This document shows, piece by piece, positions 6,035 to 11,375 of a DNA stretch of 64,000 bases; within the stretch, counting starts at the first letter, position 1; each line of letters starts with the position of its first letter. Under the pieces are notes generated by a model that made no database searches, was not told the DNA's origin, and was given only the letters and a program-made list of their open reading frames with translations. The DNA is from Clostridia bacterium (GTDB taxonomy: Bacteria > Bacillota > Clostridia > Acetivibrionales > STF1-152), in assembly GCA_028280575.1 (NCBI GenBank), contig JANQLN010000092.1:1-64000 (forward strand), in the 5' to 3' direction. Both the position numbers and the translations under genes were made by a program.

Positions 6035-6724
6035 CTATCTGGCAAAGTTATGTTTGCCTATTTTTATAATTATTTTTCTTGACCATATCCATCTGCTGGT
6101 TGCAGTAGCAGGATTCCAGTAATAAATGCATCCATAGGTCGGGTCCCAACCGTTAAGGGCGTCTCTTGCCGCTTTGTATGCGGTATTATTGGGAGCTAAG
6201 TTGATTTGGCCGTCTGAGACGGCAGTAAAAGCTCCGGGTTGGTATATGACTCCTGCTATTGTACTTGGAAAACGGCTGTCCCTTACCCTGTTAAGCACAA
6301 CCGCACCTATTGCAACCTGTCCTGTATATGGTTCTCCCCGGGCTTCACCATGTATTATGTGGGCCATCAAATTTAAATCCTTGCTGGCAGTGGTACTTGT
6401 GGCCCGGCCGGTAGGAAGCCCTATTGCCGCCAGTGTTTGCGGACCGGCTATTCCGTCTACCTTCAAGCCATTTCTAGCCTGGAATAATCTTACTGCTTTA
6501 TATGTCTTATAACCGTAAATACCATCAACCCAACCTTCATAATACCCCCAGTTTTTAAGCCTGACTTGAATATTACGTACTTCACTGCCCCTTGAACCGT
6601 AATGGGAAAGTGTGGCAATATTCCTGTTATACAAATAATGCAGCCTGTTATTCATGCCTAAAACAGAGATTAAAACTATTGTTAGCAATATGACGGCAGT
6701 CATGTTTCTGGACGCTTTTTTCAA
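6035..6724 (-). CDS. sleB: Spore cortex-lytic enzyme SleB-like cell wall hydrolase
   Basis: Secreted lytic transglycosylase-type enzyme that degrades muramic-lactam cortex during spore germination. Seen: an N-terminal signal or anchor segment (about residues 9-24), a peptidoglycan-binding domain (about 42-100, GSRGSEVRNIQVRLKNWGYY and VDGIAGPQTLAAIG), a short TS-rich linker and the Hydrolase_2 catalytic domain from about 118, with HGEARGE carrying the conserved catalytic Glu. The length of 229 residues is normal for SleB. No ypeB partner lies next to it, whereas bacilli usually have the pair. It is one of the signs that the organism makes spores. Confidence 0.9.
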   Translation of the reverse strand: MKKASRNMTAVILLTIVLISVLGMNNRLHYLYNRNIATLSHYGSRGSEVRNIQVRLKNWGYYEGWVDGIYGYKTYKAVRLFQARNGLKVDGIAGPQTLAAIGLPTGRATSTTASKDLNLMAHIIHGEARGEPYTGQVAIGAVVLNRVRDSRFPSTIAGVIYQPGAFTAVSDGQINLAPNNTAYKAARDALNGWDPTYGCIYYWNPATATSRWIWSRKIIIKIGKHNFAR

Positions 6725-6777
6725 AATCCATTCTCCTTCCGGGGCTACTTTTTTAATTCTTGCATAAATTCCAATAA

Positions 6778-6808
6778 AAAAATGCTATACATTTATATAG
6801 CATCATTT
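6778..6808. terminator. Hairpin terminator upstream of sleB
   Basis: ATGCTATA (6782-6789) pairs with TATAGCAT (6796-6803) with A/T-rich flanks on both sides. On the minus strand it would stop read-through from the small membrane-protein operon into sleB. Confidence 0.6.
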
Positions 6809-6860
6809 TAGTTTTAATTATTCTATAAGAAAATATGCAAAACTTTGAAAAATAAACAAG

Positions 6861-6897
6861 TACTCCATACCTTAAATTTTATGAAAGCATGGAGTAT
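6861..6897 (-). terminator. Terminator of the small membrane-protein operon
   Basis: TACTCCAT (6861-6868) pairs with ATGGAGTA (6889-6896). Read on the minus strand the stem is followed by a T-rich tail (CTTGTTTATTTTT). It lies immediately after the stop of the 6898-7143 gene. Confidence 0.6.
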
Positions 6898-7143
6898 TTA
6901 GAAAAATAATATGTACAAAAGCAGTATTATAAGCAGCTGGTCTTCAATACCTTCCGTAATGAGAATGAAAATCAGGCCAACTATAAGTATTTCTTCTATC
7001 CCGATATTATTGAAAATATCCAAAAAGGGTAGATTATTTCGCTCTTTCTGTGGTGTTGCTTTTTCTTCATCCTTATTGGGCAGCGGGATTTTTTCTTCTT
7101 TTTGTGGAATCTTTTTCATATTGGAATATCTTGCATGTTGCAT
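6898..7143 (-). CDS. Small membrane protein with acidic/basic N-terminus (family unknown)
   Basis: An 81-residue protein with a lysine/glutamate/proline-rich N-terminal half (about residues 9-38) and a C-terminal hydrophobic half (about 48-81) containing GIEEILIVGLIFILITEG and then a second hydrophobic stretch. That membrane block matches in layout the segments of the neighbours at 7931-8182 and 8364-8540: acidic residues, then a hydrophobic run ending LI/LF. It is last in a minus-strand run of small genes. Function unknown; the segment pattern resembles small hydrophobic proteins common in spore formers, which is inference. Confidence 0.65.
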   Translation of the reverse strand: MQHARYSNMKKIPQKEEKIPLPNKDEEKATPQKERNNLPFLDIFNNIGIEEILIVGLIFILITEGIEDQLLIILLLYILFF

Positions 7144-7157
7144 TACCGCATCCCCTT

Positions 7158-7535
7158 TTATTCTTTTTCTTTTTCATCAAGAAGTTTTGCAACAGCCGAA
7201 AACTGCAGCAGCATGATACAGTTCTTTAATTTTTTTTGCCGTTTTTCATTTAAAAATGGCCTAACAGACTGCAGTAAATTTACCCGGGGATCACTCCTGG
7301 AACCCAGCCTATCCATCACCCCCTTTATTCTTTGCATCATTTCCATGTTTTCTATCATGTCGCTTCCGGGCATACCGGAATTATTCTCTGATTGTGCCCT
7401 TTTTTCCCCGTTGGGATTTTCCTTGCCCGATGATGAGGTAAAGGCATTTATTATGTTTTTGAGATTTTCCTGCATACCTTCTTTATTTAACATTTCCGCT
7501 ATTTGTTTTACTTTGTCGTTGAGGTCTTCACTCAT
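7158..7535 (-). CDS. Small hydrophilic hypothetical protein
   Basis: A 125-residue soluble protein, mostly helical by composition, without transmembrane segments. Residues 1-30 are amphipathic (DLNDKVKQIAEMLNKEGMQE), a low-complexity Ser/Asn/Gly/Lys stretch follows at about 34-55, then a basic helical C-terminus (RPFLNEKRQKKLKNCIMLLQ). I do not recognise the family by name. An RBS (GGGAGGA on the minus strand) stands before the start. It lies between two small membrane-protein genes and is probably part of the same operon, so a membrane-associated complex is possible but unproven. Confidence 0.7.
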   Translation of the reverse strand: MSEDLNDKVKQIAEMLNKEGMQENLKNIINAFTSSSGKENPNGEKRAQSENNSGMPGSDMIENMEMMQRIKGVMDRLGSRSDPRVNLLQSVRPFLNEKRQKKLKNCIMLLQFSAVAKLLDEKEKE

Positions 7536-7582
7536 AAAAGATCCTCCCTTAAAAAAATCGTTTAGTAATGTATATTCAAATA

Positions 7583-7903
7583 TTACTTAATAATGTCCCT
7601 GATTTTTCCTATGATCTCTTCCCCATGTTCCCCAATAAGGTTTTTCATTTTTTCAAAGTCCTCTCCGCGGACTTTCTTTTTCAAATCATCCTTATCGATT
7701 TTGAGATCATTGAGCCTGGACGGGTCAAATTCATTCAATTTCTGCATGAAATCATCCTTGTTGATTTTATTGATTTTTTTTGCAAGCTCTTCCGTATCAC
7801 CATTCTTTATTTTTTCCAGAGCACTGTTTATTTTTGCTTTCAGCATTTTTTCGTCCATTTTCCCTACCAAATCATTAAACATCTTGTTAAAGTTATTACT
7901 CAT
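7583..7903 (-). CDS. Small charged helical hypothetical protein
   Basis: A 106-residue, highly charged (Lys/Asp/Glu), predicted all-helical protein with no membrane segment. The start is placed at the ATG whose first base is 7903 (MSNNFNKMFNDL), because AAAGGAG lies at the right distance from it; an ATG 9 bases further upstream overlaps the RBS itself. The sequence contains heptad-like stretches (DTEELAKKINKINKDDFMQK) suggesting a coiled coil. No family recognised. It lies in the minus-strand run of small proteins. Confidence 0.7.
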   Translation of the reverse strand: MSNNFNKMFNDLVGKMDEKMLKAKINSALEKIKNGDTEELAKKINKINKDDFMQKLNEFDPSRLNDLKIDKDDLKKKVRGEDFEKMKNLIGEHGEEIIGKIRDIIK

Positions 7904-7930
7904 TATAAACATCTCCTTTATTGTTCTTTA

Positions 7931-8182
7931 CTATTTGGATGCTGCCTGGTCAGTATCATATTCTTCCAACTGTTCATCTTCTTTTCTTACATTGTCACAC
8001 AACAGGAATATGAAAAGGAATACTATCAGGATAATCAATATATAGTTATTTTCCAGCACATTGAACCTTGTTTTTTCTCCTGAAAACAATATAAAAAAAG
8101 TAATAATAAAAAAAATCAATTCATCATTGCCATCCCTAAACAGTCCTTCAACCCCCCTTGCAAGGTTGTTAAAAAACTCCAT
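7931..8182 (-). CDS. Small two-segment membrane protein
   Basis: An 83-residue protein with two hydrophobic segments: GNDELIFFIITFFILFSGE (about residues 18-36) and YILIILIVFLFIFLLCD (about 47-63), followed by an acidic tail (NVRKEDEQLEEYDTDQ). The first segment shares the E-L-[hydrophobic]-FF-I-[x]-F-[x]-LF layout with the two segments of the 8364-8540 gene and with the C-terminal block of the 6898-7143 gene. The RBS is GGGGGG before ATTTTC-ATG. Function unknown. Confidence 0.7.
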   Translation of the reverse strand: MEFFNNLARGVEGLFRDGNDELIFFIITFFILFSGEKTRFNVLENNYILIILIVFLFIFLLCDNVRKEDEQLEEYDTDQAASK

Positions 8183-8363
8183 GAAAATACCCCCCGGTTA
8201 TTTTTCACTGGTTCCGTATTTAAACGCATGGAAACCATTCATACTTAATATAGTATGAAACAGAAGATGTATCTGTTACAGTTTTTTTGTAATGCAGCGA
8301 AAAAAATAGTATGTAATTGTATAAATACCTTTAACTGTTTTAATCGCTATTCTTGCCCCGGTT

Positions 8364-8540
8364 TCAGTAAAACAATAATAGGAAAATAAGTATGAAGAAC
8401 AAAGCGGAACTGTTCTTTTCACAGCATAAAGCTTCATCATAATATCCTCGCAGTATTAACAGCGGCCTGTTGTCATAAAATAGCAGAAGATAGATTAATA
8501 TAAAGAACAATAATTCGCTATTACAGGATAAAGTACCCAA
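8364..8540 (-). CDS. Short hydrophobic protein with duplicated membrane segment (TTG start)
   Basis: A 58-residue frame read on the minus strand from a TTG whose first base is 8540, preceded by AAAAGGAGG at ideal spacing; stop TGA at 8366-8364. The protein is an internal duplication: SELLFFILIYLLLFY (about residues 8-22) and SALFFILIFLLLFY (about 45-58), joined by a linker rich in Tyr, Asp and Cys (RGYYDEALCCEKNSS). This is the layout of small hydrophobic repeat proteins that I recall from clostridial spore formers, but no function can be read from sequence. It is easily missed because of its size and start codon. It is upstream of, and on the same strand as, three other small proteins. Confidence 0.7.
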   Translation of the reverse strand: MGTLSCNSELLFFILIYLLLFYDNRPLLILRGYYDEALCCEKNSSALFFILIFLLLFY

Positions 8541-8838
8541 TTTCTATCCTCCTTTTCATAAATTTATAGCTTCATTAACATAATATTAATTTGGCTGTAA
8601 TATTGTTACTAAAAATCCTGAAAGCATGTGCCATGATTCTAAAAATACCAGCAAGGGGTATAAAGATGTATAGAATGCGGTGCTAAGTATAAGGGGAAGT
8701 CTATATATTTTATATTGAGGGAGATAATAACAGGGAAGCCGTAATGGATGTTTTTGGATTGTATTTTTTGGGTATATTGTAAGTAGCCCTGCTTGCGGCA
8801 AAATTAAAAATGGATTGAGCTTGATAAGGAGGATGAGA

Positions 8839-10116
8839 GTGGGTAATAACAATGTATTTGATGTTAGAGAAGGGGATTTTGAAAAGGAAGTTCTAAAGGA
8901 CAATAAGCCGGTAGCCGTATATTTTTATTCGGATGACTGTTTGCCCTGTTCCGCTTTTTCACCATTATTTGAAAGACTGTCCCAAATTTACGGTGAAAAA
9001 ATAAAATTTGTAAAGGTGTGCCTGCAGCAAGACAGGGACCTGGGAGGTAAATACAATGTAAGAAGCACTCCGACCGTAATGTTTCTAAAAGACGGTGAAG
9101 AAGTCTGTTCCAGGCTTACAGGTTATATAACCAAATCTGAATTCAGAGAATCTGTTGAAAACTTTATTGAAGGCAAATGCAAATGTAAGGAAAAATCAAA
9201 AGTTTCTGCCGATGTAGCAGTACTGGGATCAGGACCTGCCGGTTTGTCGGCCGCAATTTATACGGCCAGGGCCAAGCTTTTTACTGTTGTGGTAGACGAA
9301 GGGCTTTCAGGCGGGCAGGTTGCCACTACATACCATGTAGCCAATTACCCTGGAACCAATGGGGTAGTAAGAGGGCTGGACCTTATGGAAAATATGAAAA
9401 AACAGGCGTTGGATTTTGGTACTACAATTGACGAATTGAAGGAAATCAGTCAATTTTCGGTTAAGGGCAAATATTTTTATATCGAAAGTGATGATACGGA
9501 TTACCAGGCCAGGTCTGTGATAATTGCGACGGGAGCCACTCCCCGCAAGCTTCCTGCACAAGGCGAAGCCGAGTTCAGGGGCAGGGGTGTACATTATTGT
9601 GCTACATGTGACGGGGCAATGTACCAGGATAAGGATGTACTGGTGGTGGGCGGAGGCAATTCGGCCGTTGAAGAAGCCGTATTCCTTACGAGGTATGTAA
9701 ACCGTGTAACAATAATCCACCAACTGGATTATTTTCAGGCTGCAAAAGCCTATGCAGATGAAGCATTGAAGCATCCGAAAATAGATGTTTTATGGAATAC
9801 TGAAATCAGAAAGGTAAGTGGAGATAAATTTGTTGAAAATGTCCTTACCGAAAATATAAAAACAGGGGAAAAAAGGGACATCAACACTGACGGTGTATTT
9901 GTATACATAGGCCTTAAGCCAAGGAGCGGGCTTTTTAACGGTATATTAAAGATGGATGGGAGAGGCTATATAATAACAGACGATAATATGCAGACCAGCG
10001 TCGGGGGTATTTATGCGGCAGGCGATATCAGGAAAAAGCTTGTAAGGCAGATCGGTACTGCCGTGGGAGACGGAATCACGGCAGGGGTTTTGGCCGAAAG
10101 GTTTTTGAATGGATAG
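8839..10116 (+). CDS. Thioredoxin-thioredoxin reductase fusion (FAD flavoprotein)
   Basis: A 425-residue fusion. Residues 1-105 form a thioredoxin-like domain with active site CLPC (about Cys34/Cys37), followed by a Cys/Lys linker (GKCKCKEKSK). From about 113 it is a TrxR-type flavoprotein: GSGPAGLSAAIYTARA FAD loop, redox motif CATC (about Cys254/Cys257) and a second dinucleotide loop GGGNSAVEEAVF. The arginine pair that binds the NADPH 2'-phosphate in classical TrxR (HRRD) is replaced by IHQLDYFQA, so NADPH use is doubtful; NADH or another donor is possible. The start is placed at GTG 8839 because AAGGAGG (8826-8832) ends 6 bases before it, while TTG 8815 has no RBS. It heads a group with a second TrxR-like gene and a glutaredoxin-like gene. 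Confidence 0.85.
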   Translation: MGNNNVFDVREGDFEKEVLKDNKPVAVYFYSDDCLPCSAFSPLFERLSQIYGEKIKFVKVCLQQDRDLGGKYNVRSTPTVMFLKDGEEVCSRLTGYITKSEFRESVENFIEGKCKCKEKSKVSADVAVLGSGPAGLSAAIYTARAKLFTVVVDEGLSGGQVATTYHVANYPGTNGVVRGLDLMENMKKQALDFGTTIDELKEISQFSVKGKYFYIESDDTDYQARSVIIATGATPRKLPAQGEAEFRGRGVHYCATCDGAMYQDKDVLVVGGGNSAVEEAVFLTRYVNRVTIIHQLDYFQAAKAYADEALKHPKIDVLWNTEIRKVSGDKFVENVLTENIKTGEKRDINTDGVFVYIGLKPRSGLFNGILKMDGRGYIITDDNMQTSVGGIYAAGDIRKKLVRQIGTAVGDGITAGVLAERFLNG

Positions 10117-10218: not shown

Positions 10219-11091
10219 ATGCACGATATTATTATCATAGGTAAAGGACCTGCTGGAATATCGGCAGCGTTATATACTGTAAGAGCAGGACTTGATACGC
10301 TTATTATTGCCAAAGGTGACAGCGTGCTTATAAAAGCTGATAAAATTGATAATTATTACGGATTTGAAAATTCCGTAAGCGGCAGGGAGCTTTTGAAAGC
10401 AGGTGAAAGACAGGCTGAAAGGCTTGGTGCAAGTATTGTTGATGATGAAGTTATATCGTTGAAAAAAGATGAGCATTACGTAGTTGAGTGTACTAATGGT
10501 GAGTATATGGCAAAATCCGTTCTTCTTTCAACGGGAAAGGTTTTAAAAAAGCTAAACATTACCAAACTTAAGGATTTTGAGGGAAAAGGAGTTTCATACT
10601 GCTCAACTTGTGACGGTTTTTTTTACAGGAACCTTAAAGTTGGAGTTATCGGCTACGGGGATTATGCGGTGCATGAAGCTTTAGAGCTTGAGGCATATAC
10701 AAAGAATATAACTATTTATAGCAACGGATTTGATATTAATGCTTCAGAGGGCTATTTAAAAAGAATATCCCGGTTTAAAACAAACACTAAAAAGATAGTG
10801 AAAGTAGACGGAGAAGAGTTTATTAAAAGGATATACTTTGAGGACGGCAGCAGTGAGGACATTGACGGTTTGTTTATTGCATATGAAAGTGCTTCAAGTA
10901 CGGACTTTGCCAGAAAGCTTGGAATACTTACCAAAGGTGATTCCATAGTGGTTAACGACAATCAGCATACAAACCTGCCGGGCCTGTTTGCCGCAGGAGA
11001 TTGTACGGGCGGATTCAAGCAGGTGTCAACTGCCGTAGGTGAAGGAGCCGTTGCAGGGAAGGGTATTATTGATTATGTCAGGGCACTTTGA
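10219..11091 (+). CDS. Thioredoxin reductase-like flavoprotein, possibly ferredoxin-dependent
   Basis: A 290-residue TrxR-fold protein: FAD loop GKGPAGISAALYTVRAG, redox pair CSTC (about Cys128/Cys131) and a C-terminal FAD motif GLFAAGDCTGG. Its middle domain has a degenerate dinucleotide loop (GYGDYAVHEALEL) and no HRRxxxR signature; the equivalent stretch is ITIYSNGFDINASEG. A clostridial class of TrxR-like enzymes (FFTR) takes electrons from ferredoxin and has lost pyridine-nucleotide binding; this protein fits that description, which is inference. It could also be a reductase with another donor. It lies about 100 bases after the fusion gene and about 55 bases before the glutaredoxin-like gene. 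Confidence 0.8.
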   Translation: MHDIIIIGKGPAGISAALYTVRAGLDTLIIAKGDSVLIKADKIDNYYGFENSVSGRELLKAGERQAERLGASIVDDEVISLKKDEHYVVECTNGEYMAKSVLLSTGKVLKKLNITKLKDFEGKGVSYCSTCDGFFYRNLKVGVIGYGDYAVHEALELEAYTKNITIYSNGFDINASEGYLKRISRFKTNTKKIVKVDGEEFIKRIYFEDGSSEDIDGLFIAYESASSTDFARKLGILTKGDSIVVNDNQHTNLPGLFAAGDCTGGFKQVSTAVGEGAVAGKGIIDYVRAL

Positions 11092-11147: not shown

Positions 11148-11375
11148 ATGTCGATTAAAATTTATACTACGCCAACTTGTCCGTATTGTACTATGGCAAA
11201 GAAGTATTTTGATTCAAAAAATATCGGGTATGAAAATGTGGACGTGACAGGTGACAAACAGGCTGCGCAGGAAATGATTGACAAATCGGGCCAAAGAGGA
11301 GTTCCGGTTGTGGAGATTGACGGGAATATAATTGTTGGCTTTGATAAGGAAAAAATTGAAAGCTATATGAAGTAA
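11148..11375 (+). CDS. Glutaredoxin-like/NrdH-type redoxin
   Basis: A 75-residue thioredoxin-fold protein with the dithiol site CPYC (residues 11-14, TTPTCPYCTMAKKYF) and the cis-Pro segment GVPVVEI. NrdH/YruB-type small redoxins of this length accept electrons from thioredoxin reductases rather than glutathione, which clostridia usually lack; the two TrxR-like genes directly upstream fit that. AGGAGGA precedes the ATG at good spacing. The exact client (for example ribonucleotide reductase) cannot be read from the context. Confidence 0.9.
   Translation: MSIKIYTTPTCPYCTMAKKYFDSKNIGYENVDVTGDKQAAQEMIDKSGQRGVPVVEIDGNIIVGFDKEKIESYMK

Follow-up and report, generated by a model that had tools for sequence, protein, structure and literature searches.

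A contiguous set of five small genes preceding the spore cortex-lytic enzyme gene sleB was analyzed in silico in a 64,000-nucleotide stretch of clostridial DNA (the window; Clostridia bacterium). The two most upstream genes encode the hydrophobic proteins Q58 and Q83, paralogues in each of which a 13-residue segment (LLFFILVFLLLFY) occurs twice. Their synthesis seems to fall late in sporulation, and their destination is probably the outer envelope of the spore. Our overall reading is that these are segment microproteins with sigma-K-type late-sporulation promoters, located in the outer forespore membrane or coat, with Q109, Q125 and Q81 as their partners; we give it roughly even odds (about 0.5).

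Organization and conservation of the gene cluster

The genes are transcribed on the minus strand in the order Q58, Q83, Q109, Q125, Q81, sleB (Table 1), and none of the five small proteins has a convincing Pfam or NCBIfam match. The placement of the Q58, Q83 and Q81 frames and their common strand agree with the initial annotation, which omitted the two soluble genes between them (Q109 and Q125), the promoters and the single-segment set described below. Its description of all genes as having good ribosome-binding sites holds for Q58, Q109 and Q125; Q83 and Q81 are absent from the list filtered at a score ≥4. Similarly, the single operon it proposed is retained for the tight unit Q83-Q109-Q125-Q81, but the Q58 gene has a promoter of its own.

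Table 1. Features of the small-gene cluster and its promoters in the window.
Feature	Position	Strand	Description	Basis
Q58 promoter	8580..8609	-	sigma-K-type, GTAAC-N17-AATATTAT	pattern counts
Q58	8364..8540	-	double-segment hydrophobic protein, 58 aa	TTG start, RBS, homologues, 13-residue segments
Q83 promoter	8250..8279	-	sigma-K-type, GTAAC-N17-CATACTAT	pattern counts
Q83	7931..8182	-	double-segment hydrophobic protein, 83 aa, Q58 paralogue	hhalign, orthologues in same slot
Q109	7583..7912	-	soluble all-helical protein, 109 aa (106 aa from ATG at 7903)	homologues, AlphaFold2
Q125	7158..7535	-	soluble protein, 125 aa	C-terminal motif DPRxNLLxxxxPFLxxxRQ, homologues, alignment
Q81	6898..7143	-	81 aa; hydrophilic N-part (IPLP motif) followed by two acid-capped hydrophobic segments	homologues, alignment
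sleB	6035..6724	-	spore cortex-lytic enzyme	TIGR02869, 298 bits

The Q58, Q109, Q125 and Q81 genes are collinear on one strand in 29 of the 34 loci that were fetched from the order (Acetivibrionales). The exceptions are one locus with a divergent Q58 gene (L068) and four partial ones (L066, L089, L090, L097), where the contig is short or breaks off. Downstream of the cluster, sleB is found in 24/34 loci. In Ruminiclostridium-type genomes, the slot before Q109 is taken by a Cys/Gly-rich protein with two hydrophobic segments. Across the class, the Q109 profile matches 57 of 391 genomes (54 once the weak matches in G067, G108 and G310 are removed), and full-length Q58 is present in 18/391. Among 20 further, distant loci, the Q109-Q125-Q81 trio occurs in 17 and Q58 in two (L168, L170); sleB lies at most 2.5 kb downstream in 11, while the other nine carry Q109, mostly with the trio, without an adjacent sleB. 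Q109 and Q125 are thus a more widespread part of the cluster than the hydrophobic proteins. A search of the open-access literature by title or abstract start retrieved no paper on the cluster itself.

On the plus strand, the divergent neighbor of the cluster (8815-10116) encodes a thioredoxin-reductase-like protein with a thioredoxin domain fused to its N-terminus. Behind it come another reductase-like gene (10219-11091) and a glutaredoxin-like one (11148-11375). A divergent reductase-like gene is located near the cluster in many relatives. AT-rich hairpins were seen by eye between the Q81 gene and sleB (at about 6855-6900 and 6775-6800); as the terminator scanner called neither, they were given no weight.

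Q58 is a genuine gene with a TTG start

The TTG codon of Q58 is preceded by AGGAGG at a spacing of 7 nt. The initial annotation had considered this frame a missed gene and regarded non-conservation of the frame in related species as an argument against it; 33 of the 60 relatives, counting the genome itself, have a homologue at E ≤ 1.4e-5, and a looser tally of 47/60 at E ≤ 1 takes in short single-segment matches. In an alignment of 26 sequences, 15 columns are invariant and the linker is variable; 14 of the invariant columns fall within the two hydrophobic segments or represent the D following the first segment or the start M. The segments could be measured in 25 of the 26 proteins (the second segment of L094 was missed by the pattern), and are 84% identical within a protein and 84–86% identical between orthologues. 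At identical residues the codons agree in a fraction of only 0.38–0.40, i.e., they are saturated, and the conservation of the residues therefore points to purifying selection. The hydrophobic run comprises 13 residues in 29/50 cases (range 9–15). Taken on this comparative evidence, the Q58 frame is a real gene. Its AlphaFold2 model places helices at residues 8-22, 24-30 and 44-57, albeit with low confidence (pLDDT 63).

Segment repeats, paralogy and duplication

The near-identical segments noticed earlier within Q58, LLFFILIYLLLFY and ALFFILIFLLLFY, share 11 of 13 residues, an identity reached by 2 of 100,000 shuffles of the residue order of the second one. Profile comparison (hhalign) of the Q58 family with Q83 gave a probability of 98.2% over an alignment spanning both segments, and orthologues of Q83 occupy the same slot in the loci of relatives. 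By these profile data the two proteins are paralogues. The shared motif and common descent as membrane peptides that had been proposed for Q81 as well could not be confirmed, its comparison with Q58 and Q83 having yielded 7.4% and 8.9%, respectively; homology of Q81 to either protein is unsupported, leaving a resemblance. Homology of Q109 to Q125 is likewise unsupported.

Segment duplication, the origin put forward in the initial annotation, is supported by the repeat within Q58 and by a Q58 homologue of 93 residues in one relative (L067), which carries three segments. The linker is repeated there too, and this provides direct evidence for duplication of the whole unit. At the other end of the range are single-segment microproteins, of which the genome under study encodes at least four, 37–47 residues long with Gly/Cys/Tyr-rich flanks; none of these four matched a Pfam or NCBIfam family at E ≤ 1. 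Other relatives possess the single-segment kind with 33–41 residues.

The Q109, Q125 and Q81 proteins

Homologues of Q109, Q125 and Q81 were each detected in 53 of the 60 relatives. The named records with a homologue of Q109 comprise, among others, Acetivibrio straminisolvens, A. mesophilus, A. alkalicellulosi, Pseudobacteroides cellulosolvens, Anaerobacterium chartisolvens, Herbivorax sp. and Ruminiclostridium cellobioparum. The AlphaFold2 model of Q109 consists of helices throughout (pLDDT 72) and retrieved no PDB match below E 3 with Foldseek; neither Q109 nor Q125 matched a known Pfam or NCBIfam family above chance. Matches of Q109 among the 60 relatives to ORFs of about 360–435 residues were taken as chance helical similarity. 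Of the four stretches fetched (L177, L178, L179, L180), the two that were read, L178 and L177, by eye resemble DNA methyltransferases with a ParB-like start.

Four loci (L106, L108, L110, L113) contain a second Q109-Q125 pair without Q81, and about 2 kb downstream of it lies the gene of a small protein that is rich in Gly or Ala and has a single hydrophobic segment. In L171, a 105-residue ORF of Ser-Met and Asn-Ala-Met repeats (about 6650-6970 in locus coordinates, plus strand) lies downstream of a lone Q109 homologue.

Promoters of the sigma-K type

Six gene sets were searched with four promoter patterns, among which the sigma-K-like one, defined beforehand, stood out: in the Q83 slot it is present in 16 of 17 homologues (shuffled mean 2.5, maximum 7). 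We found that a sigma-K-type promoter (AC, 16–18 nt, [C/A]ATANNNT) precedes the double- and single-segment genes at a frequency far above that of shuffled controls. A refined GTAAC type, derived from the same Q58 and Q83 sequences as first counted, occurs before 17/30 Q58 and 14/18 Q83 genes, with a shuffled maximum of 1 for each and a background of 2/284. The single-segment genes of relatives were counted with the pattern already fixed, and 14 of 17 possess the AC type and 10 of 17 the GTAAC type. All four single-segment genes of the genome itself carry the pattern, their upstream regions having already been viewed by eye.

The strict form AC-N16-17-CATANNNT precedes 14 of 18 distant Q109 genes (shuffled maximum 4, background 14/322), a set from which L168 and L170 were left out because Q58 lies upstream there. 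It is also present in 6/6 of the Ruminiclostridium slot genes and in 0/6 of the Ruminiclostridium-type Q109 genes. An AC -35 and a CATANNNT -10 about 16–17 nt apart, the combination taken to define the sigma-K regulon, are therefore found for the Q83 slot and for distant Q109. The SigG/F pattern was detected in 1/31 Q58 and 0/17 Q83 upstream regions, no better than in shuffles, and forespore promoters for these genes were rejected on that count.

In Clostridium difficile, sigma-E and sigma-K promoters have a common -10 and differ at the -35 (ATA vs AC) (PMC3789822). On the basis of this difference, the promoters of the cluster are read as mother-cell promoters, most likely of the sigma-K type, with the reservation that the -10 of Q58 (also at its site in the window) and of the single-segment genes usually begins with A instead of C.

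Link to sporulation and proposed role

Of the 54 genomes in which Q109 matches strongly, 53 also encode SpoIVA (the exception is G266), vs 281 of 391 overall, a co-occurrence inflated by relatedness within the clade. Among the 18 genomes of the class with full-length Q58, 15 possess SpoIVA; it is missing in G111, G186 and G208, the latter two being 61% complete genomes. The guess of the initial annotation that the small proteins are spore-related is supported by the sigma-K-type promoters, this co-occurrence and the conserved adjacency of sleB, and the promoter patterns argue strongly for late mother-cell expression.

In 6 of the 11 genomes of one family (f4), SpoIVA is split (L181, i.e., G027:C1:2485000-2496500, and G018, G032, G036, G043, G046), with residues 2-405 and 399-492 encoded about 6–40 kb apart. 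The insert in L181 includes an ORF of 547 aa which by eye is large serine recombinase-like. The arrangement resembles a skin-type element located within spoIVA, which the mother cell may excise; a literature search by title found no paper on split spoIVA.

In the mechanism that we propose, Q58 and Q83 would belong to a family of late-sporulation microproteins that contain a 13-residue segment once, twice or, in one case, three times, and whose genes are read in the mother cell by an RNA polymerase carrying a sigma-K-type factor. That very hydrophobic small proteins are made there late, alongside partners that are soluble and helical, points to the outer forespore membrane and the coat. The short acid-capped hydrophobic helices may enter the mother-cell-derived outer forespore membrane or the overlying coat, where the near-invariant segments would pack against one another. 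The co-expressed Q109 and Q125, which are soluble and helical, and the half-soluble Q81 could act as partners on the mother-cell face, and the result would be a sublayer of the spore envelope.

A bolder version holds that microproteins with one to three segment copies constitute a previously undescribed sigma-K regulon and build a hydrophobic layer, either embedded in a membrane or packed on itself, in spores of Acetivibrio-type clostridia. Q109 and Q125, the conserved soluble pair encoded ahead of sleB in several clostridial families, would organize this layer. This version is tentative, and we would sooner expect it to need revision than to stand. Most of what is known about the spore envelopes of clostridia comes from a few model species. 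Five conserved sleB-adjacent genes without a curated family, together with microproteins of 33–47 residues under one promoter type, would extend the late sporulation programme of Acetivibrio-type clostridia in a compact and testable way. Being simple, the segment units also lend themselves to studying why 13 hydrophobic residues are conserved nearly letter for letter.

Alternative explanations

The main rival to an envelope role is one linked to SleB, in which the cluster is an assembly or regulation module whose trio and hydrophobic anchors place or hold SleB, or access to its substrate, in the envelope for germination. The linkage across families (24/34 and 11/20 loci) speaks for it, but the nine distant loci without a neighboring sleB do not fit. 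Furthermore, sleB itself is devoid of the mother-cell promoter pattern (GTAAC type 0/33; AC type 8/33 vs a shuffled mean of 6.2), and 57 of the 60 relatives, own genome included, encode YpeB, which usually partners SleB, so that no replacement of YpeB is needed; a role of the cluster as such a replacement was rejected. On balance, we regard the SleB module as unlikely.

Transcription of Q58 and its kin as vegetative small membrane peptides by sigma-A, with an incidental likeness to sporulation promoters, is improbable. The Q58 site in the window can also be read as a weak sigma-70-like match, GTAACA-N18-TATTAT (9/12 to the consensus). However, the -10 of Q83, of the Ruminiclostridium slot gene and of distant Q109 is CATANNNT, unlike that of sigma-A, and both the SpoIVA co-occurrence and the proximity of sleB argue against a vegetative function.

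Slightly less probable again is mother-cell lysis, with tiny holin-like membrane proteins late in sporulation and the adjoining lytic enzyme as the lysin. Such a role would suit short hydrophobic proteins with a late mother-cell promoter type beside a peptidoglycan hydrolase; yet SleB matches the model of a spore cortex enzyme (TIGR02869) rather than a mother-cell lysin, 13-residue segments are short for a membrane span, and it is the soluble Q109 and Q125 that have the wider distribution. That the ORFs are spurious or the repeats a low-complexity coincidence, as the TTG start, tiny size and lack of a database family might suggest, is already refuted by frames, order and start sites conserved in dozens of genomes with saturated codons.

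Comparison with known systems

In Bacillus, ypeB is linked to sleB, as the small genes are here. In the genome under study, however, YpeB is encoded elsewhere (G000:C59), and no curated family, not even TIGR02889, is matched by the small proteins.

YjcZ-type sporulation proteins of Bacillus are tiny and consist of one hydrophobic segment in a Gly-rich frame, a description that also fits the single-segment paralogues found here. The sequence of the segment presumably differs from that of YjcZ, the four single-segment proteins match no Pfam or NCBIfam family at E ≤ 1 and Q58 has no family match either; two- and three-segment forms exist here. A "yjcZ family sporulation protein" is listed as membrane-associated (PMC11796252) and yjcZ, a tiny B. 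subtilis gene, is placed in the sigma-K regulon (PMC517825). As a sequence pattern, the sigma-K-type promoter is present at Q58, Q83 and the single-segment genes.

The SpoVM-SpoIVA pair, a tiny membrane-inserting mother-cell peptide with a soluble scaffold, serves us as a working analogy, with no claim to a common family. SpoVM is a 26-residue peptide forming an amphipathic helix (PMC4307972). The segments described here are instead 13 uniformly hydrophobic residues in proteins of 54–84 aa, and the system differs further in its late promoter type and in the presence of SpoIVA itself alongside it.
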